Assembly (NCBI RefSeq): GCF_024006985.1 | Contig: NZ_JAMXIB010000014.1 | Span: 1 to 53,738 of the forward strand | Length of the DNA: 53,738 nt | Direction of reading: 5' to 3' | Source: Robiginitalea marina | GTDB lineage: Bacteria; Bacteroidota; Bacteroidia; Flavobacteriales; Flavobacteriaceae | Part shown: piece after piece, positions 33,613 through 53,738 of the stretch | Layout of the letters: each line of letters opens with the position of its first letter | How positions within the stretch are numbered: the stretch's first letter is position 1 | Position numbers and translations under genes: made by a program | The notes under the pieces: generated by a model | What the model was told of the DNA's origin: nothing | Database searches by the model: none | Seen by the model: only the letters and a program-made list of their open reading frames with translations

Positions 33613-33764
33613 GCTAATTGCCAAATTCGCTAATTGACAAATTCGCTAATTGACAAATTCGCTAATTGACAAATTCGCTAATTGACAAATTCGCTAACTG
33701 ACAAATTCGCTAACTGACAAATTCGCTAACTGACAAATTCGCTAATTCGCTAATTAACCAATTC
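33613..33764. repeat. Tandem 16-base repeat array
   Basis: Eight head-to-tail copies of a 16-base unit occupy 33613-33740: one GCTAATTGCCAAATTC, four GCTAATTGACAAATTC and three GCTAACTGACAAATTC. A half unit (33741-33748) and one diverged copy (33749-33764) follow. The variants are grouped in blocks, as expected for growth by slippage. The last copy runs into the stop codon of the metallophosphoesterase gene. The array is AT-rich in a GC-rich genome. There are no spacers, so this is not a CRISPR array. Confidence 0.95.
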
Positions 33765-34260: not shown

Positions 34261-34278
34261 GCCTTTAAAATCTTGAGG

Positions 34279-34286
34279 CAAAGATA
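34279..34286 (-). promoter_or_regulatory. Bacteroidota -7 box for the metallophosphoesterase
   Basis: On the minus strand it reads TATCTTTG, a perfect TAnnTTTG box, 18 bases before the ATG at 34260. It supports this start over any upstream extension. Confidence 0.5.
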
Positions 34287-34461: not shown

Positions 34462-37400
34462 ATGAGTCGAGAAATTCAAACCATCAAGGAGCTGCAACGC
34501 CTCCTGGAGCTTGAGGCAGCACTTGAACAGGTACGTGCCAGAAGTTTGGTGATGCGCCACACTTCGGAGCTGCAAAGCATTATCCATACCGTACATCAGG
34601 AACTCTTAAAGCTGAACCTGTCCATTTCCGGGGGATCATTTATTGTGATCAACAGCGAGCTGGACACCCAAATCCATTGCTGGGGTTCGGGGGGCACGGC
34701 AGATACCTCAGATGAGGTAACCATCCCCCGCCTGGAGAAACCCATATACACCAACCTGTTGGAGGGGATAAAAAAGGGGCCGGGGTTTTTTACGGAAGCC
34801 TACACCCGGGAAGAAAAAACGGAGTTTTTCACCTTTTTGGTCCGGCATAAACCCTGGTCGGAGCTCAGCGCCGCGGAAAAAGAAGAAACCCTTTCGGCCC
34901 CGGGCGGATATACGCGCTCCTGTGTGGTATCTGAGCATACCAGCATTGTGATCGTCAACCACTTCGGACAGGCGTTTACAGCGGCTGAAAACCATATCCT
35001 GGAGCGTTTCGGGACCGTCTTTGAACAGTCATATACCCGTTTCCTGGACCTTCAAAAGGCCGAAGCCCAGGCCCGGGAAGCCCGGATCGAAGCGGCCCTG
35101 GAACGGGTGCGCGCCCGCTCTATGGCGATGCAATCCTCGGAGGATTTGAGCGATGTGCTTAGTGTGCTTTTCCAGCAGTTTGACCGCCTTGGTATTGCAC
35201 CCTTAACAGTCTGGCTAACCCTTTGGAACCCTGAAGAAAACACCTTTACATACCGCTCAACGGGCACCTCGGGAAAACGGATCCAGGGCCAGCAGGTGGT
35301 CGACATCGGGGGAATGGACCTTTGGAAAGACCTGTACAACAAGTGGAAATCCGGCACCTCCGAAGGCGTGGAAGTGCTTTTTTATTCCAAAGAAGACCTC
35401 GGGCAGCTTTTCAGCCTGTTGGAGGAAACTTATTCGGCCATGCCAGCGGAGGAACGCCTCACCCCGGAGCGTTTCCCACACGGGGGGTACAGCGTGCAGG
35501 GGCATTGTAAATTCGGATATATCGGCTACACCCATACCCGGGAACCCTCTGAGGAAGACAAGGCCATACTTACCCGGTTTGCCACGGAATTCGGCAGGGT
35601 CTACCAGCGGTTCCTCGATTTGCAAAACGCGGAAGAGAGGGCCCGGGAAGCCCAGATCGAAGCTGCCCTGGAACGGGTAAGGGCCAGGTCTATGGCCATG
35701 CATCAAACCGATGAATTGAATGATGTGCTTTGCGTGTTATTGGAGCAATTTGATTTCTTAGGTATTAATCCGGTACTCACTCATTTAACCTTGTTTGATG
35801 AAGCCAATGAAAAATTCAGTCTTCGCCTGACCACTTCACCTACCAGCAGAATTTTGGTAGAACAGATCATCGACATCTATGCGGTAGAGTCCTGGAAAGC
35901 CTCTTATGAAAACTGGAAAAAAGGGATTCCCAATACGGTGGATTGTATTGACTATCCACCGGAAGCGTTACCCGCAGTTTGGGAGGTGTTGAGTGAAGTA
36001 ATGAATGCTTTGCCGGAAGGCCATAAAATAAATCCGGAAGATTTTCCTAACGGGTTATTTACTACACAGGGTCATTTCAAATTCGGATACCTGGGATTTA
36101 ATCATAGTAGAAAGGCAACAGCAGAGGAAAAAACTTTGGTAAGCCGCTTTGCCACCGAATTTGGCAGGGCTTATCAACGCTTCCTGGATATTCAAAAAGC
36201 AGAAGCCCAGGCAAGAGAAGCACAGATAGAAGCGGCATTGGAAAGGGTGAGAAGCAGGTCTATGGGAATGCAGAATACCACAGAAATGCAACAGGTGGCC
36301 AACGAAACCAGAGCGCAATTGCTGTCTTTGGGTCTCAAAATTGATGCTTTGGCCATGAGCGGGGTGATCGACAATGAAGCGGATTATGATGTTTGGGTAG
36401 GCGGGGCAATTTCTGAAAAACCTCTGCGCATACCTTATAATAACAATACGAGTGTACAACGTGACTATAACAAAGCCATTAAAGAACGACCAGAATTGTT
36501 TACAAAAACCTATTCTGGCAAGATCATGAAGGACTACTTCAGGGACTTGATGGCGACCAATACATTCAATCCTGAAATAGAAAAATTCATGTTGGAGTGC
36601 CAGGCGTTTACAACGACTTTGACCTTCATGAAAAATTCAGGAATGCAAATAGTCCGGTATACTGATCAACCGTTTTCAGATGCAGACAACACCATTGTAA
36701 TACGTTTCGGGAAAGTTTTTGAGCAGGCATATATCCGTTTTCTGGATCTCCAAAAAGCAGAAGCCCAGGCAAGGGAAGCGCAGATCGAGGCCGCCCTGGA
36801 GCGGGTACGCTCCAAGACCATGGCCATGCACAACACCGAGGATATCGGCGTTACCGTGGCTGCTTTTTTCAGGGAACTCGTCGGCATGGGCCTCGATGCC
36901 TCCATCCGCTGCGGGGTCGGCATTTTGAGCCAGTCGGAGCACATGCAGCTTTGGACGGCCTCGGCCCGGGACGCCTCGGCCCCCGTGCTCAACTCCGGCA
37001 CCCTCGATATGTCGCTGCACCCCTTGTTGCAAGGGGTAAAGCAAGCCTGGTCTAAAGGGGACCCTTCCTTCTCCTATACGCTTGAAGGCAATGATCTTGA
37101 ACGGTACTACCAGGTGCTCAGCGACGCCCCGGATTACCCGGTGCACTTCGACCTGAAGGCCATCCCCAGGGCGGTTTACCAAAATACGTTTATCTTCAGG
37201 GACGGGGTCCTTTTCTCCTTTACCGAATCACCCCTGCCGGAAACTATCCGGAATATCCTGGAACGTTTTGCCTCGGTATTCGGACAAACCTATACCCGAT
37301 ACCTCGACCTTAAAAAAGCCGAGGAACGCGCCCGGGAAGCCCGGATTGAACTTGGCCTGGAACGCGTCCGGGCCCGGGCGATGGCCATGCAGGATTCTTC

Positions 37401-40400
37401 GGAGCTGACTGAGGTCCTGTCCGTCATCTTCCAGCAACTGAAGCTACTGGGCGTGGATACGGTCTGGACGCATCTGACTCTGGTCCATCAGGAGGAAAAC
37501 ACGTTTACGTATCGGATGACGGGCCGTAACGGGGAGCGTATCGTGGCTGAGGAAAAAATTTCCCTTGACGCTTCGGAGCACTGGGCGCATATCTCCGATG
37601 CCATCAAATCCCCGGACACAGAACCGGACCCCATCACGCGGTTTGAAGTTCCTACGGAAGGTCTGGAGGGTATATGGTTGCTCTTTGATGGCATCTTCTC
37701 AAAACTTCCGAAAGGGGAACAAGTGTCTCCGGCCGACTTCCCAAACGGACTGTACACAACCCAGGCCTATTGCAAATTTGGCTTTCTGGGCCTCAACCAA
37801 ACCAGGGAGGCCACCGCGGAAGAGGCCGATATCCTGCTGCGCTTTACCACGGAGTTTGCCAGGCTGTATCAGCGGTTCCTCGATTTACAGAATGCGGAGG
37901 AACGGGCCCGCGAAGCCCGGATCGAAGCTGCCCTGGAAAGGGTACGTGCCCGTTCTATGGCCATGCACTCCACTGAGGAAATCCTCGAGGTGGTCGTGGT
38001 GCTGTTCAACCAGTTAAAAGCCCTTGATGTCAATTTCATACAGGCCTGGATCAGCATCTGGCACCTTGACGAGGGCTATCTGGAGATGTGGATGTCCCCT
38101 ATTGAAGGATTCGGGGACCAGCCCATTTACCACCAGCGGCCTTCGGCCGAATTTGAGGATACGACGGTAAAATCGTGGTTAAAAGGGGACCGGTTTTCCT
38201 ACCTGTCCCTGCCCGGGGAGGAAATTGTGACCGGGTTTTTGGTCCGGATGGACCAGATGCTCGGTGGGGATTATTTCGAGAGGTTACAGGAAAAAAACCG
38301 CTACAGCCGGCTTGAATTTGTGGATGCCAACCACAAATACGGAACCGTCAGCATGTCCTGGCACGAGGAGGTGGCGGAGCAGGATAAGGAAACCCTCTAC
38401 CGGTTCAGCAAAGTATTCGAACAGACCTATACACGCTTTCTCGACCTCCAAAAAGCCGAGGCCCAGGCCCGGGAAGCGCAAATCGAGGCGGCCCTGGAAC
38501 GGGTGCGCGCCAAGACCATGGCCATGCACAATACCGATGACATTGCAGACACGGTAGTTACCTTTTTCGAAGAGCTCGTCGGCCTGGGCCTGGATTATAC
38601 GATGCGGGTGGGGATCGGCATCTTAAGCCAGTCGGAGGAGATGAGGTACTGGACCGCTTCGGTACGCGGGACTGCGGAAACCATCTTGCAAAGGGGGTTG
38701 ATCGACATGACCCAGCATCCCCTTTTGACAGGTGCAAAAAGAGCCTGGTCCGAACAAGTCCCCCTTTTCACCTATACCCTTGAGGGCAAAGCCGTAAAGG
38801 AATATTTTAAGGTGCTCAATGATGATCCGGAAGTTTCTCTTGAATTTGACCTGGATGCCCTACCGGAGACCATACACCACAAAAGTCATGTCTTTGGGGA
38901 CGGCCTCCTGTACACCTTTACCGAAACACCTCTTCCCCGGGACATCACCAGTATCCTCGAACGCTTTGCGGCAGTGTTTGGCCAGACCTATACCCGTTAC
39001 CTCGACCTGGAACGGGCGGAGAAACAGGCCAGGGAATCGCAAATCGAGGCGGCCCTGGAGCGCGTAAGGGCCAAAGCCCTGGCCATGCACAGTTCGGCAG
39101 ACCTGAGGCAGACCATAACGACCATTTTTGAGGAGTTGAAAAACCTGGATGTAAAGCCGCTGCGATTGGGACTGGGGTTGCTCAACCCGGACAAACCCGA
39201 AGGGGAAATCGTCACCTCGCGAATCGGTGAAAACGACGAAATCATTGAAGTAAGCGGAGCATTTGAATTGGTGGGTGATCCGATACTTGAAGAAGTTTAC
39301 GACCATTTTAAAAAGCAGCTCGATTACTTCCCCATCCTGGAAGGCGATGAAATCAATAGTTACTATGCCGCCCTCACCAGGTCTGTAGATGTAGAGGGTT
39401 ATGGGACGGACACCAAACATTACGGGTGTTTCCTGTTCTTCCCAGAGGGGGGGCTATACGCCTGGGCAGCCGAACCACATTCAGAAGCGCAAATTGAAAT
39501 CCTAAAGAAATTTTCACGGGTGGTGGAGATTACCTACCGGCGCTATAACGACCTCATTGAATCCGAGGCCCGGGAAAAAGAGGCCGTCAAGCAGGCTTCG
39601 CTCGACCGGGTCCGGGCGGAAATCGCGTCCATGCGGACCACGGAGGACCTCGAGCGCATCACCCCCCTGGTCTGGAAGGAACTGACCACCCTGGGCATCC
39701 CGTTTTTCCGCTGCGGGGTCTTTATTATGGACGAGGCCAGCCAGCTGGTGCATGTGTACCTGACCAACCCTTCCGGGGAGGCCCTGGCCGCTATGGACCT
39801 GCCTTTTGATTTTGACATGTCCCTGATCCAAAAGGGGGTGGCCCACTGGAGAAAGCAAAAACCCCTGGTAGAAGAGTGGGACCAGCATCAGTTTATTGAA
39901 ATGACTGCAAAGCTGATGAAACACGGGCAGGTCAAAAACATCCAAACCTACCAGGCTGGAGAAACACCCCCGGAACGCCTTGTCTTGCACCAGGTGCCTT
40001 TTGCACAGGGTATGCTGTATGTGGGCAGCACCCAGGCCCTCTCCGACGTGGAAATGGATATCGTAAAGGCCCTGACCCGCACTTTTGCCGTGGCCTATGC
40101 CCGGTACGAAGATTTCAGGGAGCTGGAAAAGGCAAAGCAAAAGGTTGAAAAGACACTAGATGAGCTGAAAGCTACCCAGGCCCAACTGATACAGTCCGAA
40201 AAAATGGCCTCCCTGGGGGAACTCACTGCGGGCATTGCCCACGAAATCCAAAACCCGCTGAACTTTGTGAACAATTTCTCGGAGGTGAGCAAGGAACTCC
40301 TGGAGGAGTTGAACCAGGAAATCGAAAAGGGTGACTGGGAGGAGGTAAAGGCCCTCGCCGGGGACGTGATCCAAAACCTTGAAAAAATCAACCACCACGG

Positions 40401-40923
40401 CAAACGGGCCGACAGCATCGTCAAGGGCATGCTCCAGCACAGTCGCAGCAGCGAGGGGAAGAAAGAACCCACCGACCTCAATGCCCTGGCCGATGAGTAC
40501 CTCCGCCTGGCCTACCACGGCCTGCGCGCCAGGAACAAAAGTTTTAGCGCCGAATTCAAAACCGATTTTGACCCTGCCCTGCCCAGGATTGACGCGGTGC
40601 CCCAGGATATGGGCCGGGTCTTGCTCAACCTGATCAACAATGCCTTCCAGGCCGTGGAAAATGGTGCACGCCCAACGGTCCTGGTGGCGACCAGGCGCCT
40701 GACCAACGCGGTGGAGATTTCGGTTACCGACAACGGCCCGGGCATCCCTGAAGCCATCAAAGACAAGATTTTCCAGCCCTTCTTTACCACCAAGCCCACC
40801 GGGCAGGGCACGGGCCTGGGCCTAAGCCTGAGCTACGACATCGTAAAGGCACATGGAGGGGAACTCTCGGTGCAATCGTCCCCGGAAAGCGGCACAACCT
40901 TTAGCATCCATCTCGGCCTATGA
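34462..40923 (+). CDS. Giant soluble histidine kinase with ten tandem sensor modules
   Basis: The product has 2153 residues, several times a usual kinase, and no signal or membrane helix. Ten related modules of about 185 residues fill residues 1-1900, with borders near 223, 413, 603, 788, 976, 1168, 1355, 1541 and 1723. Each ends with a helix like [20 protein letters not shown] followed by [12 protein letters not shown]; the inner part looks GAF-like. The kinase core follows: phospho-acceptor His1927 in [14 protein letters not shown] box GRVLLNLINNAFQAV, G1 DNGPGIP and G2 [11 protein letters not shown]. No receiver domain is present. It is the first gene of the cluster; a weak TACCTTAC box at 34351-34358 may be the promoter. 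Its stop overlaps the first FIST gene (ATGA). Ligands are unknown. Confidence 0.92.
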   Translation: MSREIQTIKELQRLLELEAALEQVRARSLVMRHTSELQSIIHTVHQELLKLNLSISGGSFIVINSELDTQIHCWGSGGTADTSDEVTIPRLEKPIYTNLLEGIKKGPGFFTEAYTREEKTEFFTFLVRHKPWSELSAAEKEETLSAPGGYTRSCVVSEHTSIVIVNHFGQAFTAAENHILERFGTVFEQSYTRFLDLQKAEAQAREARIEAALERVRARSMAMQSSEDLSDVLSVLFQQFDRLGIAPLTVWLTLWNPEENTFTYRSTGTSGKRIQGQQVVDIGGMDLWKDLYNKWKSGTSEGVEVLFYSKEDLGQLFSLLEETYSAMPAEERLTPERFPHGGYSVQGHCKFGYIGYTHTREPSEEDKAILTRFATEFGRVYQRFLDLQNAEERAREAQIEAALERVRARSMAMHQTDELNDVLCVLLEQFDFLGINPVLTHLTLFDEANEKFSLRLTTSPTSRILVEQIIDIYAVESWKASYENWKKGIPNTVDCIDYPPEALPAVWEVLSEVMNALPEGHKINPEDFPNGLFTTQGHFKFGYLGFNHSRKATAEEKTLVSRFATEFGRAYQRFLDIQKAEAQAREAQIEAALERVRSRSMGMQNTTEMQQVANETRAQLLSLGLKIDALAMSGVIDNEADYDVWVGGAISEKPLRIPYNNNTSVQRDYNKAIKERPELFTKTYSGKIMKDYFRDLMATNTFNPEIEKFMLECQAFTTTLTFMKNSGMQIVRYTDQPFSDADNTIVIRFGKVFEQAYIRFLDLQKAEAQAREAQIEAALERVRSKTMAMHNTEDIGVTVAAFFRELVGMGLDASIRCGVGILSQSEHMQLWTASARDASAPVLNSGTLDMSLHPLLQGVKQAWSKGDPSFSYTLEGNDLERYYQVLSDAPDYPVHFDLKAIPRAVYQNTFIFRDGVLFSFTESPLPETIRNILERFASVFGQTYTRYLDLKKAEERAREARIELGLERVRARAMAMQDSSELTEVLSVIFQQLKLLGVDTVWTHLTLVHQEENTFTYRMTGRNGERIVAEEKISLDASEHWAHISDAIKSPDTEPDPITRFEVPTEGLEGIWLLFDGIFSKLPKGEQVSPADFPNGLYTTQAYCKFGFLGLNQTREATAEEADILLRFTTEFARLYQRFLDLQNAEERAREARIEAALERVRARSMAMHSTEEILEVVVVLFNQLKALDVNFIQAWISIWHLDEGYLEMWMSPIEGFGDQPIYHQRPSAEFEDTTVKSWLKGDRFSYLSLPGEEIVTGFLVRMDQMLGGDYFERLQEKNRYSRLEFVDANHKYGTVSMSWHEEVAEQDKETLYRFSKVFEQTYTRFLDLQKAEAQAREAQIEAALERVRAKTMAMHNTDDIADTVVTFFEELVGLGLDYTMRVGIGILSQSEEMRYWTASVRGTAETILQRGLIDMTQHPLLTGAKRAWSEQVPLFTYTLEGKAVKEYFKVLNDDPEVSLEFDLDALPETIHHKSHVFGDGLLYTFTETPLPRDITSILERFAAVFGQTYTRYLDLERAEKQARESQIEAALERVRAKALAMHSSADLRQTITTIFEELKNLDVKPLRLGLGLLNPDKPEGEIVTSRIGENDEIIEVSGAFELVGDPILEEVYDHFKKQLDYFPILEGDEINSYYAALTRSVDVEGYGTDTKHYGCFLFFPEGGLYAWAAEPHSEAQIEILKKFSRVVEITYRRYNDLIESEAREKEAVKQASLDRVRAEIASMRTTEDLERITPLVWKELTTLGIPFFRCGVFIMDEASQLVHVYLTNPSGEALAAMDLPFDFDMSLIQKGVAHWRKQKPLVEEWDQHQFIEMTAKLMKHGQVKNIQTYQAGETPPERLVLHQVPFAQGMLYVGSTQALSDVEMDIVKALTRTFAVAYARYEDFRELEKAKQKVEKTLDELKATQAQLIQSEKMASLGELTAGIAHEIQNPLNFVNNFSEVSKELLEELNQEIEKGDWEEVKALAGDVIQNLEKINHHGKRADSIVKGMLQHSRSSEGKKEPTDLNALADEYLRLAYHGLRARNKSFSAEFKTDFDPALPRIDAVPQDMGRVLLNLINNAFQAVENGARPTVLVATRRLTNAVEISVTDNGPGIPEAIKDKIFQPFFTTKPTGQGTGLGLSLSYDIVKAHGGELSVQSSPESGTTFSIHLGL
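35700..36770 (+). other. AT-rich segment covering modules 3 and 4 of the giant kinase
   Basis: Hand counts of single 60-base lines give about 35 percent GC at 35701 and 35761, 38 percent at 36421 and 45 percent at 36301, against about 58 percent at 36841 just after the segment. The change begins and ends inside the conserved linker helices. The reading frame is unbroken. This fits recombination with, or transfer from, a lower-GC relative. Confidence 0.7.
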
Positions 40924-42095
40924 AAGCAAAATCGATCCACGGCAACTCCCCCGAACAGATCCATCAGGCCCTGCAGCAAAGTATGGCCGATGGCTTTACC
41001 CCAACCCTGGCCATCGTTTTTATATCGATCCGGCAAGATCGGGACGCCATACGGAAACTCCTTGCCCAAAACGATATTGACGCCTTCGGGGCCACGTCAT
41101 GCGGGGAATTCGTCGATGGCCACCAAAGCACAGGGGGCATCGCGATCTTGCTCATGGACCTCCCAAGGGATGCCTATTCCCTTTTGCTGGAGGATATGGG
41201 CGGGCGCGGGACAGGCGAAGTAGCCGACCTGTTTGCTGCCAGGGTCCTTGCGCAATTTGACAACCCTTCGATGCTCCTTTGCAGTACCGGGGTAACCCCT
41301 GAAGGGGGTGTGTTTGACGGCATGAAGCTGGTCGAACGGCTGACCACCGCCCTGGGCCCGGATCGGGCCTTTTTCGGGGGGATGGCGGGCGATGACCTGA
41401 CCCTGACCGGCACTTCTGTTTTTACCCCAGCCCGGGAATCGCAGGACGGCCTTGTGGCCCTGGTGCTGGATGCAGACCGGGTGGCCCTGCACGGCATGGC
41501 GATTACCGGGTGGAAACCCCTTGGGATTTCCCGCAAAGTCACCCGAAGCAGGGGAAAGCTCCTGTATGCCATAGACGATAAGCCCGCCGTGGACATGTAC
41601 CTAAAATACCTGGGGAAAGGGGAACAGGCAGGGGACCGGGAGTTTAACCTGCTTGCCGAGCTCTCCTTCCACCACCCCTTTATCGTGGAACGGGAAGCCG
41701 GTGGCGATACCCTGATGAAGGGACCCATGGGTATTGACCACGCAGAACATGCCCTGGTGATGGATATGGAGATGAAAGAAGGGGAAGTGTTCTGGTTTTC
41801 CATGCCCCCTGATTTTGATATCGTGCAAGAAATCACGGATGCGGCCACGGAAGTGAGAAACACCGTGGGAGCCGATGCCGATGCCCTGCTGGTATTTTCC
41901 TGCGCGGGGCGGGAACCCTCCCTGGGGCCCCTGGTGACCATGGAAAATGAAGGCCTGGCTTCCGTCTGGAACAGCCCCATGGCCGGCTTTTACACCTACG
42001 GGGAATACGGCCGGGGCAAAAGCGGCCGGCAACAATATCACTCTACCGCCTGCTGTTGGGTAGCCCTAAAAGAAATACCTCAAGCAGACTCATAA
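40920..42095 (+). CDS. Stand-alone FIST-domain sensor protein 1
   Basis: The 391-residue soluble protein consists only of FIST N- and C-terminal domains. The N-terminal part begins MKAKSIHGNSPEQIHQALQQ and has TPTLAIVFISIRQDRDAIR and FGATSCGEFVDG; the C-terminal part has ALLVFSCAGREPSLGPLV, NSPMAGFYTYGEYG and a final TACCWVALKE. FIST domains are thought to bind small ligands such as amino acids and are normally fused to kinases or cyclases. Here the gene starts inside the stop of the giant kinase (ATGA), so it is probably a sensor that works in trans with it. Two more copies follow downstream. Confidence 0.9.
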   Translation: MKAKSIHGNSPEQIHQALQQSMADGFTPTLAIVFISIRQDRDAIRKLLAQNDIDAFGATSCGEFVDGHQSTGGIAILLMDLPRDAYSLLLEDMGGRGTGEVADLFAARVLAQFDNPSMLLCSTGVTPEGGVFDGMKLVERLTTALGPDRAFFGGMAGDDLTLTGTSVFTPARESQDGLVALVLDADRVALHGMAITGWKPLGISRKVTRSRGKLLYAIDDKPAVDMYLKYLGKGEQAGDREFNLLAELSFHHPFIVEREAGGDTLMKGPMGIDHAEHALVMDMEMKEGEVFWFSMPPDFDIVQEITDAATEVRNTVGADADALLVFSCAGREPSLGPLVTMENEGLASVWNSPMAGFYTYGEYGRGKSGRQQYHSTACCWVALKEIPQADS

Positions 42096-42121
42096 AAAAC
42101 AAACCAAAACGACCTGTTCTC

Positions 42122-42457
42122 ATGAAAGTATTTATCGAATTATGGAAGGCCAAAGAGGCCTGGAAGGCACTGCCCGCTACGGACCGGCAGGCCTATGCGG
42201 CCCAGTTGGGGCCGGTGATCCAGGATTTCGTCGACAAGGGGGCCGTCCTGGAGGCATGGGGAATGAACACGGACGAAACCGAGTACCGGGCTGCCTACGA
42301 TTTTTTTGCCGTGACCAAGTTCCCCTCGGATGGGCTGCTGGAGGAATTCCAGGCCATAGTGGAAGCTGCCGGTTGGTATGCGTATTTTGACCAGGTAAAC
42401 CTTTCGGGTACCCTGATGTCCCCGGAGGAAGTGGTTGGCAAAATACTCGAACTCTAA
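42122..42457 (+). CDS. Small DUF6616-like protein
   Basis: The 111-residue protein starts MKVFIELWKAKEAWKALPAT at the ATG at 42122. It is soluble, with an alternation of strands and helices that suggests a ferredoxin-like dimeric alpha-beta barrel. It resembles the DUF6616 family as I remember it, which has no known function. It lies 26 bases after the first FIST gene and 15 bases before the second, on the same strand, so it is likely part of the cluster. The order of FIST genes with a small alpha-beta barrel protein is unusual. Confidence 0.72.
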   Translation: MKVFIELWKAKEAWKALPATDRQAYAAQLGPVIQDFVDKGAVLEAWGMNTDETEYRAAYDFFAVTKFPSDGLLEEFQAIVEAAGWYAYFDQVNLSGTLMSPEEVVGKILEL

Positions 42458-42472
42458 CCCCGTCAATTTAAA

Positions 42473-43630
42473 ATGAACGCAAAAACAATTACCGTAAAAA
42501 CACCCGAAGCCCTTCAGGCGGCCCTGGAAGTGGCGGCGGCCGAAGGTTTCAGCCCCACCCTTGGGTTGGTTTTCGCGCCCTCCGGCTTCGAAACCCGGCC
42601 CCTGGCAGAGGTGCTTGATGCGAACGGTATTGCCGTTTTCGGGGCCCACACGCCCGACCGGTTTACCGACCGGGGGATTGAAAATGCGCTGGCAACCCTC
42701 CTGCTAATGGACCTCGACCCGTCCTGTTTCAGGATTGTGCTGAAATCGATTCCTACGGGGGAATATCAGGCAGGTTTGGAGGTAAGCAGGGAAATTGCCA
42801 GGATGGGCAAATCCTGGTTCGACCGTCCGGCCTTCATCGCCTCCGTATCCCAGGCCGAAGTGCCGGGAGATGCCGTGGTGGAGGGGTTTTTGTCAGTAGC
42901 CGGGGAAGGGGCCACCTTAATTGGGGGGTACACTGGCGGGAAACCTTACTGGTCCGACCATGTTGTTTTTACCAATGGGGAACAGAGCCAGTGGGGCATT
43001 GTTTGCCTCATCCTCGACCAGGACCGCGTGGCGCTGCAGGGGCTTGCCGTTTCCGGCTGGAAGCCCGCCGGCACCCCGAAGACGATCACCCGAAGCGAAG
43101 GCAACTGGATTTATACCATAGATGATGAACCCGCCTATGATGTCCTTGTCAGGTTCACAGGGGCAACCGTCGATCCGGATGACAGCGATGACCTGCTGCA
43201 GCAAATCGGCAATTCACACCCATTGCAGGTCATCCGCAGCGGAGGCAGTGCGGTGATGAATCCGCCCCTGATGTTTAACAAGGAAACCGGGGCCGTCCTG
43301 TGTGGCGGCCATATCCCCGAGGGGGCCAAAATCCGTTTTTCCCTGCCCCCGGATTTCGATATTGTGGATACCGTGGTCGAAAGCGCCCGTGAAGCCAAAG
43401 CACAGTCATTTCCCGAGGCAGACGCCTTGCTGGTCTTTTCCTGCATTGGCCGGCAGGCCACCCTCGGGCCTCTGATCGATGAGGAGGTCAACGGCCTGAG
43501 TGACGTCTGGCGAGTACCTATGGCCGGGTATTTCAGCCTTGGGGAATTCGGGGCGACCCGGGGAGGCAACGCCACCTACCAGGGCACCACCTGCAGTTGG
43601 GTGGCCTTAAAAGAAAAACCAGCACCATGA
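42473..43630 (+). CDS. Stand-alone FIST-domain sensor protein 2 (divergent)
   Basis: The 385-residue protein has the same FIST N and FIST C arrangement: TPEALQAALEVAAAEGFSPT at the start, then SPTLGLVFAPSGFETRPLAE, and near the end ALLVFSCIGRQATLGPLID, VPMAGYFSLGEFGATRG and TTCSWVALKEKPAP. The loop that reads FGATSCGEF in copy 1 and FGITTNGEF in copy 3 is FGAHTPDRF here, so the GE pair is lost and ligand binding may differ. The stop overlaps the start of the third FIST gene by ATGA. Confidence 0.88.
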   Translation: MNAKTITVKTPEALQAALEVAAAEGFSPTLGLVFAPSGFETRPLAEVLDANGIAVFGAHTPDRFTDRGIENALATLLLMDLDPSCFRIVLKSIPTGEYQAGLEVSREIARMGKSWFDRPAFIASVSQAEVPGDAVVEGFLSVAGEGATLIGGYTGGKPYWSDHVVFTNGEQSQWGIVCLILDQDRVALQGLAVSGWKPAGTPKTITRSEGNWIYTIDDEPAYDVLVRFTGATVDPDDSDDLLQQIGNSHPLQVIRSGGSAVMNPPLMFNKETGAVLCGGHIPEGAKIRFSLPPDFDIVDTVVESAREAKAQSFPEADALLVFSCIGRQATLGPLIDEEVNGLSDVWRVPMAGYFSLGEFGATRGGNATYQGTTCSWVALKEKPAP

Positions 43631-44778
43631 GAGCAAAATCCATAAAAGCAACATCACCCCAGTCCCTTCAAAAGGAATTGGAACAGGCCATGGCCGACGG
43701 GTTTACCCCTACCCTGGCGATTGTTTTTACCTCCGTGGTCCAGGACCGCAAGGCAATCGGCAACCTGATGAATGCCTCCGGGATACGCCTTTTCGGAATC
43801 ACCACCAATGGGGAATTTATCGATGAGGAAACGGAAAAGGGGTCGATCGCAGCACTCCTGCTCGATATGGACAATGAGTATTTTCAAATCTACCTGGCGG
43901 AATACCCAAATCATAACTATAGGGAAGTGGCGAAAGGGGTAGCCAACCAGGCGAAAACAAGATTTAAAAGGCCTGCCTTTATCCTGGGCACGAGCCACCC
44001 GGCGGCAGACGGGGAGGAGATCCTGAGGGGCTTTGAAGCGGTATTGGGCGAAGACGTCAATGCCTTTGGAGGAGGCGCCGGAGATGACTATTCCTTTTCA
44101 GAAACCTTTGTGTTTACCAATACAGGGGAAAGCAACAATGGGATGGTCTGTATCGCCATCGATGAAGACAAAGTCGCGATCAGCGGCATAGCCACTTGCG
44201 GGTGGAAAGCGGTGGGTACCGAAAAAACGGTGACCAAAAGCGAAGGGAACCACGTGTACACCATCGATGGCTCCCCGGCCCTGGACCTTATGACCAAGTA
44301 TGGGGGGCTTGAAAATGTACATCCCGACAACAAAGATTTACTCATGGAAATCGCCGCCAATTTCCCCTTGCAATTACAAAAAGAAAAAGGTTCTCCCGTA
44401 ATGCGCCCCCCTTTGGTGGTCGACTGGTCAGACCATTCCTTTTATACCAGTGGCACCGTGCCTCAGGGCTCAAAAATCCGGTTTTCACTGCCGCCGGACT
44501 GGGACGTCATGGAAAAGGTGGTGCAAGGCGTTCGCAACCTGAAAGAAAACGGGATGCCCAAGGCAGACGCCCTGATCGTGTTCAGCTGCGCGGGCCGGAT
44601 CCTTTCTTTCGGGCCGATGATGAACGCCGAACTGGAAGGCATCAAACAGATATGGAATGTACCCATGGCCGGTATGTTCTCGAATGCCGAACTGGGCCGC
44701 ATGGCCGGGGGAAACCTGGAAATGCACAACCTGACCACCTGCTGCGTGGCCCTTAAGGAAAAAAAACAGTCCCAATAA
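43627..44778 (+). CDS. Stand-alone FIST-domain sensor protein 3
   Basis: The 383-residue protein starts MRAKSIKATSPQSLQKELEQ and closely resembles FIST copy 1 (MADGFTPTLAIVF is shared, as is the general order). Marks are FGITTNGEFIDEE, RPAFILGTSHPAADGEE, FGGGAGDDYSFSETFVFTNT and, at the end, ALIVFSCAGRILSFGPMM and TTCCVALKEKK. The usual YGEFG block is NAELGRM here. It has no fused output domain. It is followed after 2 bases by the broken EthD-family gene and then a kinase without sensor modules. Confidence 0.9.
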   Translation: MRAKSIKATSPQSLQKELEQAMADGFTPTLAIVFTSVVQDRKAIGNLMNASGIRLFGITTNGEFIDEETEKGSIAALLLDMDNEYFQIYLAEYPNHNYREVAKGVANQAKTRFKRPAFILGTSHPAADGEEILRGFEAVLGEDVNAFGGGAGDDYSFSETFVFTNTGESNNGMVCIAIDEDKVAISGIATCGWKAVGTEKTVTKSEGNHVYTIDGSPALDLMTKYGGLENVHPDNKDLLMEIAANFPLQLQKEKGSPVMRPPLVVDWSDHSFYTSGTVPQGSKIRFSLPPDWDVMEKVVQGVRNLKENGMPKADALIVFSCAGRILSFGPMMNAELEGIKQIWNVPMAGMFSNAELGRMAGGNLEMHNLTTCCVALKEKKQSQ

Positions 44779-44780
44779 CC

Positions 44781-44902
44781 ATGCAAAAAATAACTGTCCT
44801 CTGCGGAAACCCAACCGATCCCGAAGCGTTTGAACGCTATTACCAAAACACCCATTGGCCCCTGACGGCGTGACCGTGATGGTGGGCACTAGCGATGCAT
44901 GA
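44781..44902 (+). pseudogene. EthD-family remnant with internal deletion and frameshift
   Basis: The first 30 codons from the ATG at 44781 read MQKITVLCGNPTDPEAFERY then YQNTHWPLTA and a TGA at 44871-44873. This is the usual beginning of EthD-type small dimeric alpha-beta barrel proteins of about 100 residues. A second frame, from 44864, reads DGVTVMVGTSDA and stops at 44900-44902, which matches the usual C-terminus of the same family (GGVTVLVG-like). The middle, roughly 55-60 codons, is absent and the two ends are out of frame. The intact form probably worked with the FIST genes beside it. Confidence 0.72.
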
Positions 44903-44939
44903 AAACCCCTGATGCGAATATGCCTAAAAAGACTCCTGA

Positions 44940-45956
44940 ATGAACAGCCACCTGCAAACCCTGTTTGATTTTATCAGCCAATCGGAAACCCTTCCTGAAG
45001 CGGACAGGCAACTCCTGTTGGGCGCCCTGAAAAAAGCAGATAACGATTTAGCGATCAGCCTGTTCAAACTCGACCGGACCGAAAAGGTAAAACGCACCAC
45101 GGCCATCCTCCTCGAAGAAACCATTGAAGAACTCGAACAAAAGCGGAAAGCGGTGGAGGAGGCCCTGGCCGAGCTGAAAGCCACCCAGGCGCAGCTCATC
45201 CATTCCGAAAAAATGGCCTCCCTGGGGGAACTGACCGCCGGCATTGCCCACGAGATCCAGAACCCGCTGAACTTTGTGAACAATTTCTCGGAGGTAAGCA
45301 AGGAACTCCTGGAGGAGTTGACCCAGGAAATCGAAAAGGGCGACTGGGAAGAGGTGAAGGCCCTGGCCCGGGATGTGATCCAAAACCTCGAAAAAATAAA
45401 CCACCACGGCAAGCGGGCCGACGGCATCGTGAAGGGCATGCTGCAGCACAGCCGCAGCAGCGACGGGAAGAAGGAACCCACCGATTTGAACACCCTTGTG
45501 GACGAATACCTGCGCCTGGCCTATCACGGGATGCGCGCCAAAAACAAGGCCTTCAACGCGAATTTGGAAACGGATTTCGGGGAGGCCGTGGGCGAGGTAA
45601 CCCTGGTGCCCCAGGACATCGGGCGGGTGGTGCTGAATTTGCTCACCAATGCTTTCCATGCCGTGGACGAAAAAAAGGAACAGGCCCCTGAAGGGTTCCA
45701 GCCCAAAGTGAGCGTACAGACCCGGAAGAACGGGAAATATATTGAACTCCGGGTGGCGGACAACGGGAAGGGCATACCCGAACCTGTAAAGGCAAAGATT
45801 TTCCAGCCTTTCTTTACCACCAAACCCACCGGGCAGGGCACAGGCCTGGGCCTTTCCCTGAGTTACGACATTGTAAAATCCCATGGGGGCGACATCCTTG
45901 TGGCCTCTGAAGAAGGGGAAGGGACCGAATTCACCATTAAACTTCCCTCAGAATGA
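44940..45956 (+). CDS. Short soluble histidine kinase without sensor modules
   Basis: The 338-residue protein has a short helical N-terminus ([20 protein letters not shown]), a coiled coil (about 50-90) and a kinase core like that of the giant kinase. The phospho-acceptor is His104 in [17 protein letters not shown]; the N box is [15 protein letters not shown], with DNGKGIP and [11 protein letters not shown] for ATP. There is no membrane helix and no sensory domain, so input must come from a partner, possibly the FIST proteins upstream. It is 37 bases after the EthD remnant and overlaps the next kinase gene by ATGA. Confidence 0.9.
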
Positions 45957-48900
45957 GAAACCCCGGAGTACCTGAGGCCTTTGAAGGTCGTTCCGTATAC
46001 GAACGACTCATAAATGTGATGCTGGACTTTGATGAGGTAGAGGACCTTAAAGAAATCGTCCATCCTGAATTCACGGGATACGGGTCGGCTGCGCACGAAT
46101 TCTTCAGGACCCGGGAAGACGTAAAGAAAATGGCGGAAATGCAGGCCCAACAACTTAAGGGGAGCGGTTTCGGGTATACCCGCAGGCCGGTTTCAGAAAA
46201 AGTATTTGCCGGGGGGGATGCCTGCCTGGTCCTCGAAAATTTTCTGCTGTTTTTGCCGGACAGCAACCACCAACTCGAGGTGAGGCTTTCGGCCCTCCTT
46301 GAAAAGATCGATGGAAAGTGGCTGGTAACCCACTTCCACGGCTCCAGCCCGGACACCGATATTGCCGAGGATGAAGCCTTCCCGGAGGAAGGGCTTCGGC
46401 GGAAAAACCTGGAACTCGAGGCGAAAATAAAGGAACGCACCCGCGACCTGGAGGTTGAAGCCGCCCTGGAACGGACCCGGGCCCAAAGCATGCTGATGCA
46501 GCATTCCGGTGAGCTGAATGCAGTTTCCAGTGTCTTCCACGAACAATTATTGCGGCTGGGAATTGATTCTGAGTTTTCTTTTGTATGGCTTCCCGATGAA
46601 GCCAGGGAAAACCATATTTTCTGGACTACCTGGACGGAAACCACCGAGGGGAAACAGGTATATCACAGCAAAGCGGTCACCTATCCGCTGGACCTGACTG
46701 ATGCCTACAATGCCGCCTGTATTGCCGATTGGGAAAGCGGGGTTTCGGTACACGAGCACTTTGTGCCCCCGGGGGACATCCCGGATTTCTTCACCTCCTG
46801 GGAAGAAATGCTGGAAGGGGCCCCCCACCTGAAAGCCGAATATTTCCCACAGGGGATATACTATACCGAAGCCTTCATGAAATACGGGTGTTTCGGGATC
46901 GATATCCGAAGGCCGCTGACGGAAGAAGAAAAATCCATATTGCACCGCTTTGCCATTGAATTCGAGCGGACCTATACCCGATTCCTCGACCTGCAAAAAG
47001 CCGAGGCCCAGGCGCGGGAAGCCCGGATCGAGACCGCCCTGGAGAAAGTCCGCACCCATACCATGGGCATGCGATCCAGCGAGGACCTTTCCGGGGTAAC
47101 TTCCGTGATGTTCGAACAGATGAAGGAACTGGGGGGGGATTTGTTTGCCTTCGGCGTGGTGCTGTGTTCAAAAGACAAGAACGTGGTGGAGCAATGGCAC
47201 AGCCTGGCGGACCAGGGCATGATATCCCCCTTCCAGGTGCCCGTGGACCTGGATTACATCCACCAGTACCGCTATGACCAGTGGAAGTCGGGAAAAGACC
47301 TCTTTTCGATAGAAATTCCCGAAGACTATATCGAAACGCATTTTGCCAAAATGTATACCCTGCCCTCCTTCAAGAAAGCCATGGAAGAGGTGGCAGCCAG
47401 GGGCTTTGATATCACGACCCCGACCTGGGAACTGGACTACGGGGCCTCCTTCAGCCACGGCTACCTGCTGATATCGTCCCTGGCACCCTTTGGGGAGAGC
47501 CATATCTTCCCGCGCTTTGCCAGGGTTTTCGAACAGGCCTATACGCGCTTCCTGGACCTGCAAAAAGCCGAAGCCCAGGCCCGGGAGGCGCAGATCGAGG
47601 CCGCCCTGGAACGGGTGAGGAGCCGCACCATGGCCATGCAGCATTCCGATGAACTGGCCGAAGCCTCCCACCTGCTGGACCGGGAAGTCCGCGGGCTGGG
47701 GATTAAAACCTGGGGTTGCGCCTTTAATATTTACCGGGAGCATGACTCCCTGGAGTGGTTTGGCAATGAAGCAGGGCTACTACCAACCTACACGGTGCCC
47801 AGGCAGGGGATCTTTAAAACCTATTTCGACCTGGGCCAGGAAGGGGAATCCCTTTTTATAAAGGAAATAGCCGGGGAGGAATGCACAGCCCACTATGAAT
47901 TCATGAGTACCCTGCCGGTTGTTGGCGAGGTCCTGAAGCGACTAAAAGAAACCAACGGTGCCTTCCCCTCTTACCAGATCGACCATGTCGCGTATTTCAA
48001 ATACGGCTACCTGCTGTTCATCACCCGGGAGGAGGTGCCGCAGGCCCACGAAATTTTTAAACGGTTCGCCAAAGTATTCGAACAAACCTATACCCGTTTT
48101 CTGGACTTGCAATTAAAGGAAGAGCAGGCGGTAAAATTAGTTGAGGAAAAACAACGCCTGGAAAAAACCCTGAGTGATTTGCAGGCCACCCAGAAACAAC
48201 TGGTCCATGCCGAAAAAATGGCCTCCCTCGGAGAGCTCACCGCCGGCATTGCTCATGAGATCCAGAACCCGCTCAACTTTGTCAATAACTTCTCCGAAGT
48301 GAGCAAGGAACTGCTCGAAGAACTCATGGAGGAATTGAAAAAGGGGGATGCTGAAGAGGTGGATGCTATCGCGCAGGATGTGATCCGGAACCTGGAAAAA
48401 ATTGTCCACCATGGCAAAAGGGCCGACAGCATCGTTAAGGGCATGCTGCAGCACAGCCGCAGCAGCGACGGGCAAAAAGAGCCCACCGACCTGAACAAAC
48501 TGGCCGACGAATACCTCCGCCTGGCCTACCACGGCCTGCGCGCCAAAGACAAGTCCTTCAACGCTTCCATGGAAACCGATTTTGACACCGCCGTGGGTAT
48601 TGTGGACGTGATCCCCCAGGACATCGGGAGGGTGCTGCTGAACCTGGTGACCAATGCGTTCCATGCCGTGACGGAACGAAAAAAACACCACCCCGGGGAG
48701 TATGACCCCAGGGTAACGGTGAAGTCGCGGAGAACGGATGAAGGTGCGGAAATTCAGGTAATCGACAACGGTGGCGGTATCCCGGAAACCATACGCGAAA
48801 AGATTTTCCAGCCCTTTTTTACCACCAAGCCCACCGGGGAGGGCACAGGGCTGGGGCTTTCCATGAGCTATGACATTATAAGCAAAGGGCATGGAGGGGA

Positions 48901-48976
48901 ATTAACCATGGAGACCGCGGAGGGGGAGGGCACCGTTTTTAAAATCATACTACCTGTAAAAAAGGAAAGGACATGA
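45953..48976 (+). CDS. Soluble histidine kinase with SnoaL-like domain and three sensor modules
   Basis: The 1007-residue protein has four parts. Residues 1-140 resemble a SnoaL/NTF2-like fold ([20 protein letters not shown], then [20 protein letters not shown]). Three modules of about 185 residues follow (about 175-760), each ending in the linker that contains [14 protein letters not shown]. The kinase core has His768 in [17 protein letters not shown], the N box [22 protein letters not shown] and [11 protein letters not shown]. No membrane segment or receiver domain is visible. The third module, with [20 protein letters not shown], is closely related to one in the next kinase. The ATG sits in the stop of the short kinase gene and the stop overlaps the next kinase gene. 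Confidence 0.9.
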
Positions 48977-51900
48977 GGTTGACCCAAAAAATAAAAACCG
49001 AGGTCCTGCAGGTCTATGACACCTGGCTGGAAAGCTATGTTTCAGGGAATGTGGAAACCTACGACCACTACCTGGACGATGCCTACCATTTTATCGGTTC
49101 CACCAATAATGAAGAATTCCTCAGCAGAAGGGAAACCACGGAATTTTTCAGGGTCACGGCAGACCAATTCGCCGGTAAAACGGAGTTGAGGAACGAGACA
49201 AAATCCGTGGAGGGTTTTGGGGAGCTCATATTCCTTACCCATGTCTTTGATGCATGGTTTCTCGGGGGGGAAGACTGGTCCTACTACGGGAGGTTCCGGT
49301 TTACTTCAGTGCTTCGGAACACTGAGGACGGCTGGCGCTTTATCTACCAGCATTTCTCCACCCCCGACAGCAAAGCCCAGGAAGGCCAGACTATCGGCTA
49401 CGACCAGATCAGCGCCGAAAACCTGCAACTTCGGGAAGCGATCAAAAGGCGGACCGTGGAACTGGAAGAAAAAAACCGGGAGCTGGCTATAGAGGCTGCC
49501 CTGGAGCGGATCCGCGCCCAGGTTACCGCCATGACGGATTCCTCGGAACTGCTCGATATCGTGGTGACCATGCGCACCGAGTTCGTGAAACTGGGGCATG
49601 AAGCCCATTATTTCTGGCATATGAGGTGGCTGCCCGAAACCTATAAAAAGGCGATGACCTCCGGGGATGGGACGCGCATTGGCATGGTGATGACCCTGCC
49701 CCGCAACATACACGGAAACATCCCCCTACTGGAGGCCTGGGAACAAAGCGATGACCCCACGGTAGTGTATGCGATGGATCCCGAAACCGCCGTGGACTAC
49801 GTAAATAAAATGGTTTCCCTGGGCGATTTCCAGCAGGTGGACCCGCAGGCCCCGGGCCCTGACGATATCCGTCATATTGGGGGCCTGACCTTTGTGATGG
49901 CCCGCACCACGCATGGGGAGATCGGATTCAGCCTGCCGGGGGTCGTCCCGGAGCCCCCGAAAGCGGCCGTGGATACCCTGGTGCGATTTGCGGGGGTTTT
50001 TGATTTGGCCTACCGCAGGTTTGAAGACCTGCAAAAGGCGGAAGCCCAGGCCAGGGAAGCCCAGATCGAAATGGCCCTGGAAAAAGTGCGCTCGAAAACC
50101 ATGGGGATGCAAAAAAGTCAGGAACTCAGGGAAGTGATCCAGGAAGTGTACGACCAGTTTGTACTGCTTAATATCCATGTGGAACATTCCGGCTTTATCC
50201 TGGATTATAAGGAAAATGAGCAGATGCATATCTGGTTGGCCGATACACATGGGGTCCCGGCGGAACTTACCATTCCCTATTTTGATTCCCCCCACTGGAA
50301 CAGTTTTTTGGAAGCCAAAAAGGGGGGAGCGGACTTCTTTACCAACCTGCTCGATTTCGAAACAAAGAATCAATTTTATAAGGACCTTTTTGACTTTATC
50401 CCCGATCTGGATGAGGAGATCAAACAGTATTACCTGAACTGCCCTGGCCTCGCGATTTCAACGGTATTGTTGGAGAATGTCGGGCTTTACATTGAGAATT
50501 TTACAGGGACCCCCTATTCTGAGGAAGACAATAGGATCCTGATGCGCTTTGGCAGGGTCTTCCAGCAAACCTACAGCCGCTTCATGGATCTCCAAAAAGC
50601 AGAGGCACAGGCACGGGAGGCGGAAATCCAGTTAGCCCTGGAACGCGTTCGCGCCCGCTCGATGGCCATGCAAAATACAGATGAACTGCATGAAGTGCTC
50701 AGTGTCCTGTTCCGTCAGTTTGACAACCTCGGGATTGAGCCGGTGAATGTGTTTTTGAGCCTTTTTGACCGGGAAAACAGAACCCTTACCTACCGGGCCT
50801 CCGGTAAGTCCGGGACAAGGGTTCCCGGGAAGCAGGTGGTACAGGTCGATAGCATGGAGCCCCTTAAGGCCCTCTATGACAAATGGCTGCATGACAACTC
50901 CGATTCGGTGGAAGTGATTTTTTACCCCAAAGAAGTGCTGCCTGACCTCTTTGGCATTTTCTCCGAAACCTTCGCAGCCATGCCTGAAGCAGATCGCATG
51001 GGGCCCGATGATTATCCGGAGGGCGGATATTCCGTGGCAGGGTATACCCCATTCGGGTATTTGGGATACGACCACCAGCAAGAGCCAACTGAAGAAGAAA
51101 AAGAGATCCTTTCCCGATTTTGCCTCGAATTCACCCGGGTTTATCAACGGTTCCTGGATATCCAAAAGGCCGAAGCCCAGGCCAGGGAAGCGCAAATCGA
51201 AGCGGCATTGGAAAAAATCCGGAGCAGGTCACTGGGCATGCAAAACTCAGGGGAGTTGCAGGACGTGGTACAAATAGTCGCCGAAAAGATCCAGGAACTG
51301 GGTGTGATAGTGGATCCTACAGGCGTGCTGATTTGTACGTATCCGGAAGGCACCAAAGATGTGATTCACTGGACCTACAGTCCGGCAGCCCGGGAGCGCT
51401 CCAAACCTTACTTTATGCCCTATTTTGAACATCCCATCTGGGATGAAGCATGGGAATCCAAAAACCGGGGCGATGCCTGGTTGTCGAAAACCTATTCAAA
51501 GGGGGTTAAGAACACGTTCCTTCGAACCATCTTTACCCGCAGTGATTCCGATTATTCCGGGTTACCGGAAGACTACAAGCAATGGCAGTTAGACAGCCCG
51601 GTTTATACGCTTTCGTTTGCCTGGGGTAAGCATTCGGCCCTTTGTGTCCCCAATAATGACGGCACAGCACCCACTGAAGCCCAAAAGGAAATCCTGATTC
51701 GATTTGCAAGGGTTTTTGAACAGAGCTATGTGCGGTTTTTGGACCTTCAGAAATCTGAGGAACAAGCCCGGGAAGGGCGAATACAATTATCCCTGGAGCG
51801 CTTGCGCTCCAAAGCCATGAGCATGCAGCAATCGGATGAATTGCACGAAGTTTTGGCAGTTTTGTTCGAACAGTTTGATATCCTGGGTATCCGGCCTATG

Positions 51901-53738
51901 TCGACACATATGACTATCCTCGATCTTGAAAACAACACTTTTACCTTCCGGGAAACGGGCAAATTTGGCAACAGGAGTTTCGGGGAGCACACCTTTGCCC
52001 TCGATGCCATGGATACCTGGAAAGATATGGTGGAAAGCTGGCAGAAGACCGAGCCTTTCACCATCAACCGCCTTCATTTCCCCAAAGAAAACTTACCGCA
52101 GGTATGGGAGGTATTTCATGAATCTTTTGCTTCCATGCCCGAAGAATCGAGGATTCGTCCCGAGGATTATCCCGATGGCATCTACCACACCGCTGGCAAA
52201 CACCCTTTTGGGTATATCGGGATGAACCAGGTTCGCCCTGCTACCGAAGAAGAAGAACAGATTGTAATCCGGTTTGCAAACGAGTTCGGCCGCGTTTACC
52301 AACGCTTCCTCGACCTGCAGAAAGCCGAAGCCCAGGCGCAGGAGGCCAGAATAGAAGCTGCCCTCGAAAAAGTGCGTGCCCGCACCATGGGCATGCAGCA
52401 CAGTGATGAATTGCCGGATGTGGCCCTGCTGCTCTTTAATGAAGTCAGGGCCCTTGGGGTACCGGCCTGGAGCAGTGGCTTTAATATCCTTGCGGAAGAC
52501 AGGAAGTCTGCCGCTGCCTGGATGAGCAGTGAAGGCACCCTGCAAAAGCCGTTTACCCTCCGGTTGTTCGGAGAAGCCTCCTTTGAGGAAATGGGGGCTT
52601 TCGCCAGGGGGGACGAACCTCTAATGGTGCAGGAATTGGGGGGGAAAGCGCTTGTGGCCCATTACGACTACATGAAATCGTTCCCGGACCTGCAGGCCAT
52701 CTTTAAAGACATCCAGGATGCAGGGCTTTCCCTGCCCACCTACCAGGTTAACCACCTGTGCAAGTTCGCCCATGGCTTCCTGTTGTTCATCACCTATGAA
52801 AGGGTGCCCGGAGCGCATGAAATTTTCAGGAGGTTTACCACGGTCTTTGAGCAGACCTACACCCGGTTCCTGGACCTGAAGAACCTGGAAGCCCAGGCCC
52901 GGGAATCGAAAATAGAAACGGCCCTGGAGCGCGTGAGGGCCCGGGCCCTCGCCATGCAACAGCCCGAGGAACTGAAGGACGTGGCCCGGGTGATGCGCCA
53001 GGAGATGGCACTGCTCGGGGTGGAGGAACTGGAGACCTCCAGCATCTATATCCACGACCCGCAGGCGGGAAAGACCGAGTGCTGGTATGCCATTAAAGAC
53101 ATCCGCGAGGCGGAAAAGGTGATGGTGGCGGACCATTTTGACCTGGACCTGAACGAAACCTGGGTCGGTAGGGAAATGCTCAGGTTCCACGGGGGCAAAG
53201 AGGAACAGTTATCCATTATTATGAAGGGGGATCAGCGAAAAGAATGGATCGACTATTGCGAGGCGCATTCCCAGGCCTTAAAGGGATATTACGGGGAAGA
53301 GATCCCGGAGCGTACCTACCATTTATATAAATTTTCGCACGGGGCCATCGGGGCGGCCACTCCCGGGGAACTGTCGGAGGAGAGCTGGAGCCTGCTGAAA
53401 AGGGCTGCCTCCGTCTTCTCCCTGGCCTATTCCCGCTTCCGGGACCTCACCCAGGCACGCCTCGACCTGCAGCGCCTGAAAGAAGAAAAAAAACGGGCGG
53501 AAGATGCCCTGAAGGAACTGCAATTGACCCAGCAACAATTGGTCCACGCCGAAAAGATGGCTTCCCTGGGGGAACTCACCGCAGGCATCGCCCATGAGAT
53601 CCAGAACCCGCTCAACTTTGTCAACAACTTCTCGGAGGTCAGTAATGAACTGCTCGAAGAAATGGCTGAAGAACTGGAAAAGGGCGACCTTTCCGAGGTC
53701 CGGGCCATTGTGGAAGACCTCAAACAGAACCTCGATAA
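48973..53738 (+). CDS. Soluble histidine kinase with SnoaL-like domain and seven sensor modules (partial, cut by window end)
   Basis: The frame opens at the ATG at 48973, inside the stop of the previous gene, and runs for 1588 codons to the window edge without a stop. Residues 1-135 form a SnoaL/NTF2-like domain ([20 protein letters not shown], then [20 protein letters not shown]). Seven modules of about 190 residues follow, each linked by the [15 protein letters not shown]-type helix; module types recur from the other kinases. The kinase core begins at [20 protein letters not shown] with His1541, and the window ends before the ATP-binding domain. No membrane helix is visible in the part seen. 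A response regulator, if any, would lie beyond the window. Confidence 0.9.

Follow-up and report, generated by a model that had tools for sequence, protein, structure and literature searches.

The last 19.3 kb of the window analysed here, a stretch of 53,738 b from Robiginitalea marina that is an entire contig (NZ_JAMXIB010000014.1), was found to carry a row of eight plus-strand genes and one remnant. These encode three FIST proteins (FIST1-FIST3), a DUF6616 protein, an EthD-like remnant and four histidine kinases (HK1-HK4). The row probably continues, as we strongly infer from contig ends and synteny, through two further contigs (C17 and C6) into a fifth kinase (HK5), a receiver (REC) protein and a cyclase with its own receiver domain (REC-cyclase). 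We give about an even chance to the reading that these genes form a two-component system that takes several inputs and has a nucleotide cyclase as its output, in which HK2 is, judging from sequence and gene neighbourhood, the likeliest partner of the FIST proteins. The row itself is real and its earlier description is partly confirmed, with corrections: the first-pass annotation had reported nine genes and one remnant, of which the remnant was recovered but only eight genes were counted.

HK2 (44940-45956, plus strand) is composed of an N-terminal part covering approximately residues 1-80 (HK2N), recognised with its own profile, and a kinase core recognised with Pfam. Conservation of HK2N is strong (21 columns are invariant in an alignment of 18 rows), and the HK2 model (mean predicted local distance difference test score, pLDDT, 76.8) shows a short helix and, after it, a single helix at residues 20-133 which continues into the phosphotransfer domain. 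The arrangement recurs, in varied form, in other Bacteroidota. A scan with FIST3, which thus determined the choice of the set, yielded 36 related loci, and in 31 of them HK2N is located less than 1 kb after the last FIST gene, with small open reading frames in between in a few. HK2N is missing from the other five, where only 0, 131, 290, 367 and 849 bp of contig remain beyond the last FIST gene. At least two FIST genes were observed in 30 of the 36 loci (range 1-6 per locus), an intact EthD gene in ten and, within the available stretch, a REC-cyclase in three. A kinase of this type is present in 32 loci and a module-bearing kinase in 25, and the condition that would have refuted the earlier interpretation, FIST and modular kinase genes never lying together in relatives, therefore does not hold.

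A test that depends less on FIST3 was made on 395 Bacteroidota genomes, our own included. FIST was found in 89 of these and HK2N in 15. In every one of the 15, HK2N is preceded, on its own contig and strand, by a FIST_N match whose end is 492-669 bp away. For many genomes the screens for HK2N and for the REC-cyclase scored only some of the candidates from the first look, no more than 14 and 5, respectively, and absences in both screens are therefore soft. Of the FIST places listed, only two are in open frames of 500 aa or more (504 and 1043), and stand-alone NosP with a separate kinase (NosP-NosK/NahK) is published in the accessible parts of two reports (PMC12570481, PMC8846402), so the statement of the first-pass annotation that FIST domains are normally fused to kinases, cyclases or chemoreceptors is not supported. 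Its view that sensors and kinases are here separate proteins in one conserved gene row was borne out. In the 3.25 Mb genome of R. marina the only FIST genes found at E<=0.001 are these three, and all seven matches of the HK2 kinase core (E<=1e-20) are located in the row or on its two probable continuation contigs. As all FIST genes and all HK2-core matches of the genome are concentrated there, the row is more than a chance assembly.

The window contains no response regulator because the contig ends there. The earlier statement that no response regulator explains the output is correct within the window, but a REC and a REC-cyclase are found on C6 and downstream of the cluster in relatives. C6 starts with the last approximately 155 residues of a kinase, followed by REC (494-868) and the REC-cyclase (865-1908). 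C17 (3,165 b) opens with another kinase end and then carries HK5, which is cut at the far end and comprises Reg_prop, Y_Y_Y and the start of HisKA. Reg_prop and Y_Y_Y domains are usually extracytoplasmic; a hydropathy scan of HK5 gave no strong membrane segment (1.20). HK1-HK5 were observed to be identical over 31 residues around the phosphorylated histidine. The last 95 bp are common to C5 and C17 and the first 95 bp are common to C17 and C6, and shared ends of this kind are typical of an assembly in which a repeat has collapsed; C5-C17-C6 is the simplest order. This order agrees with the synteny of the genus. The left flank gene (33763-34281, minus strand; metallophosphatase-like, named by eye and outside the system) and the DUF4293 gene to the right of the REC-cyclase are separated by 68 bp to 1.1 kb in G003, G008, G007 and G002 (for G007 and G008 the spacing is by coordinates only), whereas in G006 they are 33 kb apart with the cluster in between. 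The flanks therefore adjoin in cluster-free congeners and enclose the cluster in G006.

The REC-cyclase on C6 matches Response_reg (2.3e-25) and Guanylate_cyc (1.1e-24). When its cyclase half was aligned with CyaB (3r5g), the residues Asp, Lys, Asp, Thr, Asn and Arg were found to be retained; we take the Asp pair to be metal-binding and the set to be catalytic and base-selecting. The sequence points to ATP as the substrate, and the protein is most likely an adenylyl cyclase that would produce cyclic AMP (cAMP). Among 15 genomes reached through the loci (G080-G094), the REC-cyclase is downstream of FIST on the same contig and strand in 13, at a distance of roughly 6 to 37 kb, and in G091 and G093 it is on a contig other than that of FIST. 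G047 is a further case of both on one contig. An uninterrupted series of FIST, HK2, module kinase, REC and REC-cyclase, in this order, was found in G080, G081, G090 and G047. Genome-wide, the tie between REC-cyclase and FIST is loose. A full-length REC-cyclase (at least 62% identity) occurs in 26 of the 395 genomes, and G191 and G303 have just one kinase, the REC and the REC-cyclase.

The gene following the REC-cyclase is of the PycTM family in 8 of 23 genomes or loci (L102, L106, L107, L112, L114, L116, L150 and L151), as judged with a hidden Markov model built from five of the eight positives; Pfam PF18967 was matched in the three tested and the PADLOC PycTM model in the four tested. The REC-cyclase also matches PADLOC PycC models, as a class III cyclase may. 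We considered membership of the C6 cyclase in Pycsar and rejected it on the CTP-type positions. The CTP-selecting positions given for EaPycC in the accessible part of its description are F100, R142 and Q144 (PMC11224242); the C6 cyclase shares the Phe and has Lys and Ile at the other two, so that two of the three CTP-type positions differ, although the PycTM neighbours are nonetheless real. Other genes in the following position encode DUF6090 (G005 and G083), HD (G082), YitT (G086) and His_Phos_1 (G225) proteins. In the R. marina genome this gene is the DUF4293 gene on the opposite strand; no PycTM gene is present at this site, and the sole PF18967 match of the genome is on C47.

The states found within the genus separate the FIST part from the remainder. 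Nine genomes were compared, namely our own and eight congeners, with G009 (74% complete, no FIST) left out. The cluster with FIST is present in three of the nine (G000, G006 and G004, in the last split over contigs); the coordinates in G006 are identical to those in G094, from which L061 (Robiginitalea aurantiaca) comes. At the matching site, G005 (L157-L158) has module kinases, further kinases, REC and REC-cyclase and, in the stretch read, neither FIST nor HK2; no FIST was found anywhere in this genome at E<=0.001. In G001 a module array adjoins the left flank and the genome has no FIST. The flanks lie side by side in G002, G003, G007 and G008, which lack the cluster; G007 has one divergent FIST elsewhere in its genome. 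Because with-FIST, without-FIST and empty states all occur, FIST plus HK2 behaves, at the level of gene content, as an optional input cassette on a wider chassis of kinase array, REC and REC-cyclase.

In the mechanism we propose, the FIST proteins would bind a small ligand, for which heme/nitric oxide (NO) is one candidate by analogy, and as auxiliary sensors they would act on HK2 by way of the HK2N helix into the phosphotransfer domain. The role of auxiliary sensor is suggested by analogy with NosP-NosK, where, according to the accessible part of the report, the FIST protein NosP binds the kinase NosK and inhibits its autophosphorylation (PMC12570481). The GAF-like, NTF2-like and Reg_prop domains of the other kinases may add further inputs. 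HK1-HK5 could have one REC and REC-cyclase as their common targets, or could pair into mixed dimers; the 31-residue identity, together with the confinement of the HK2-core matches to the row, argues for one shared phosphotransfer surface and for this convergence. Phosphorylation would then switch the REC-cyclase, with cAMP as the most likely product.

Several observations weigh against this two-component reading. HK2N is unlike the N-termini of other FIST-adjacent kinases: we tried and rejected it as their homologue, as hhalign found no profile similarity (probability 0.8%) in a set of eight N-termini from Bacteroidota and Azospirillum, with the published NosK outside the set. The HK2N profile could favour FIST neighbours, from which it was itself derived. 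Only 5 of the 26 genomes with the REC-cyclase have HK2N, and in one of them, G169, the two are approximately 134 kb apart. No full-length REC-cyclase was found in 10 of the 15 HK2N genomes, nine of which were searched again with all candidates scored. Unrelated genes intervene in G082. In three of these ten, G148, G340 and G410 (loci L138, L139 and L146, the last in G410), a REC and a REC-SpoIIE phosphatase are near the cluster and the cyclase is missing; the output is thus exchangeable.

A bolder form of the two-component reading, which we regard as doubtful, holds that arrays of diverged FIST paralogues in Bacteroidota would read ligands in the cytoplasm in a combinatorial way and, via the HK2 helix and kinases with a common phosphotransfer surface, drive an adenylyl cyclase controlled by phosphorylation. 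In some relatives the signal would act on a PycTM-family membrane protein, as a Pycsar-like effector under two-component control.

The remaining kinases differ from HK2 in carrying modules of approximately 187 residues. HK1 (34462-40923, plus strand; 2153 aa) has ten modules followed by HisKA and HATPase_c; HK3 (45953-48976, plus strand) has an NTF2-like SnoaL_3 domain, three modules, HisKA and HATPase_c; and HK4 (48973-53738, plus strand, cut by the contig end) has SnoaL_3, seven modules and the start of HisKA. This gives 20 modules in all, with none in HK2, and 341 matches in the window and the fetched loci together, where overlapping loci were counted more than once. No Pfam family was matched above cut-off by the modules and no GAF match was found at E<=0.1; the only Pfam matches, such as DUF6139 and DCC1-like, were below cut-off. 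A model of one module, made from a 75-row alignment, had a mean pLDDT of 96.4, and among solved structures its best matches were GAF and phytochrome GAF domains (E 9.1e-5, template modelling score, TM, about 0.5). The module is therefore predicted to fold as a distant GAF domain and to carry a helical linker. HisKA and HATPase_c are above the Pfam cut-off in HK1-HK3. The HisKA of HK4 is partial (20.6 bits, the cut-off being 26.9), as this gene runs off the contig end. The hydropathy of HK1-HK4 fits the earlier description of the kinases as soluble, and the Pfam and module searches agree with three stand-alone FIST proteins and four mostly multi-module kinases, HK2 being module-free.

According to the first-pass annotation, the FIST proteins would have the module kinases (HK1, HK3 and HK4) as their main targets within one large cytoplasmic complex, with HK2 merely another kinase. 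The overlap of HK1 with FIST1 and the module kinases of 25 of the 36 FIST loci are in keeping with this, as are L053, L060 and L065, where HK2N is fused to modules within one protein. However, the constant neighbour of FIST is an HK2-type kinase, mostly module-free, and the matching site of G005 has module kinases and a REC-cyclase without FIST or HK2. We therefore judge this explanation unlikely, and the earlier interpretation as a whole is partly supported.

FIST1 (40920-42095; 391 aa; Pfam E 3.6e-23 and 1.3e-19), FIST2 (42473-43630) and FIST3 (43627-44778), all on the plus strand, are stand-alone FIST_N and FIST_C proteins in which no other Pfam family was found at E<=0.1; FIST3 is the best conserved paralogue. 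They could be heme/NO sensors of the NosP type, and the locus an ordinary NosP system with extra copies. A stand-alone FIST adjoining a kinase is what NosP operons have in their published descriptions as far as accessible, and FIST1 (28.0 bits) and FIST3 (44.6 bits) match the NosP model weakly (NCBIfam NF041558). These scores are, however, far under the cut-off of 450 bits, and FIST2 has no match to this model at E<=0.1. At the position where 111 of 128 FIST rows have a C-terminal His, FIST2 has Gln; in the same alignment one Cys is found in 127 of 128 rows (one gap) and one Glu in all 128. A tree of 133 FIST rows, made with a quick method that gave long-branch warnings, placed the cluster proteins apart from five NosP-like rows (support 99). 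We consider an ordinary NosP system just as unlikely as a complex centred on the module kinases. By sequence, the best match of FIST3 among solved structures was at chance level (E 0.68).

The quick tree resolved clades with FIST1 (29 rows), FIST2 (18) and FIST3 (46) and a further clade of 31 rows with no window member. The window FIST1 and FIST3 were found nearest to Cyclobacteriaceae copies and not to the Robiginitalea rows L056 and L061, and transfer or replacement of FIST genes is possible on this placement, despite the site being that used in G006. It is improbable that the cluster is a growing island of signalling paralogues that share no circuit and were brought together by duplication and transfer only, since its variable FIST copy number, the three states among congeners and the Cyclobacteriaceae affinity are met by a single strand with overlapping genes, a FIST-then-HK2 order that recurs, a far end occupied by REC and REC-cyclase, and shared phosphotransfer helices. 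Cluster genes were also observed in metagenome bins labelled Balneolaceae and Mollicutes (L049 and L066), by transfer or mis-binning. Loci of same-family genomes (L009, L012, L013 and L020) have a different, single FIST type between two kinases; the N-terminus of their downstream kinase is conserved and is common to an Azospirillum FIST-adjacent kinase. A FIST-kinase fusion was sought as proof of partnership and none was found among the loci examined; a Sulfurovum plasmid protein (L118), which by eye has FIST and then a kinase in one protein, is of another lineage. Locus L121, which came without annotation, was left aside. HK2N gave no match on plasmids.

Two smaller elements are located among these genes. 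The DUF6616 protein (42122-42457, plus strand; Pfam) lies between FIST1 and FIST2 and has an intact relative at the matching place in L146 (G410). The EthD-like remnant (44781-44873, plus strand), 30 codons followed by a stop, was named by eye from its likeness to the EthD of L040 and lies within the widest intergenic gap of the row (161 bp, FIST3 to HK2). Four ATGA overlaps of 4 bp were found (HK1/FIST1, FIST2/FIST3, HK2/HK3 and HK3/HK4), as earlier noticed. A promoter and terminator scan gave no excess, with 6 promoter-like sites against a shuffle mean of 11.3 and 30 terminator-like sites against 28.7, and the operon limits therefore rest on gene spacing. The guanine-plus-cytosine fraction of the cluster is 0.542 compared with 0.556 for the window to its left, which is no clear foreign signal. 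A 16-bp tandem repeat (33608-33747; 8.8 copies, 96% matches) is located between a gene ending at 33279 and the left flank gene.

Parts of this system resemble known ones. Response-regulator adenylyl cyclases, such as cyanobacterial CyaC, likewise have a receiver domain that precedes a class III cyclase whose residues are of the adenylyl type, whereas here the cyclase is paired with a separate REC and a kinase array, partly with FIST. Multi-GAF sensor kinases share the tandem arrangement of a GAF-like (here predicted) fold with helical linkers; they differ in that the present modules have no Pfam family above cut-off and reach ten copies in HK1. With Pycsar the likeness lies in the PycTM-family next gene of 8 of the 23 genomes or loci and in the PycC model matches; the differences are the two CTP-selecting positions, as far as the accessible EaPycC description defines them, the cyclase being a response regulator, and the lack of PycTM at the window-genome site. 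As described in the accessible parts of the reports, NosP-NosK (NahK)-NosR (NarR) also combines a stand-alone FIST with a neighbouring kinase in which no sensor is recognised and with a second-messenger response regulator (PMC12570481, PMC8846402). In contrast to that description, several FIST paralogues and several kinases of one core type are present here, with REC and REC-cyclase or REC-SpoIIE and not cyclic di-GMP (c-di-GMP) enzymes. A stand-alone FIST with a kinase is thus already known, and the new elements are the tandem FIST paralogues, the near-identical phosphotransfer helices and the probable adenylyl cyclase output. We found no recognised FIST/REC-cyclase locus in Bacteroidota in the literature searched, which consisted of open papers, with most subscription papers outside it.

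As Pfam misses the GAF-like module, kinases of this kind are under-annotated. If the proposed system is correct, FIST sensing and cyclic-nucleotide signalling, both little studied in Bacteroidota, would be joined in one testable circuit, and NosP-like auxiliary sensing would be extended beyond c-di-GMP. HK2N offers a defined candidate docking part, and the congeners with the full array, without FIST and HK2, and with an empty site provide natural controls.

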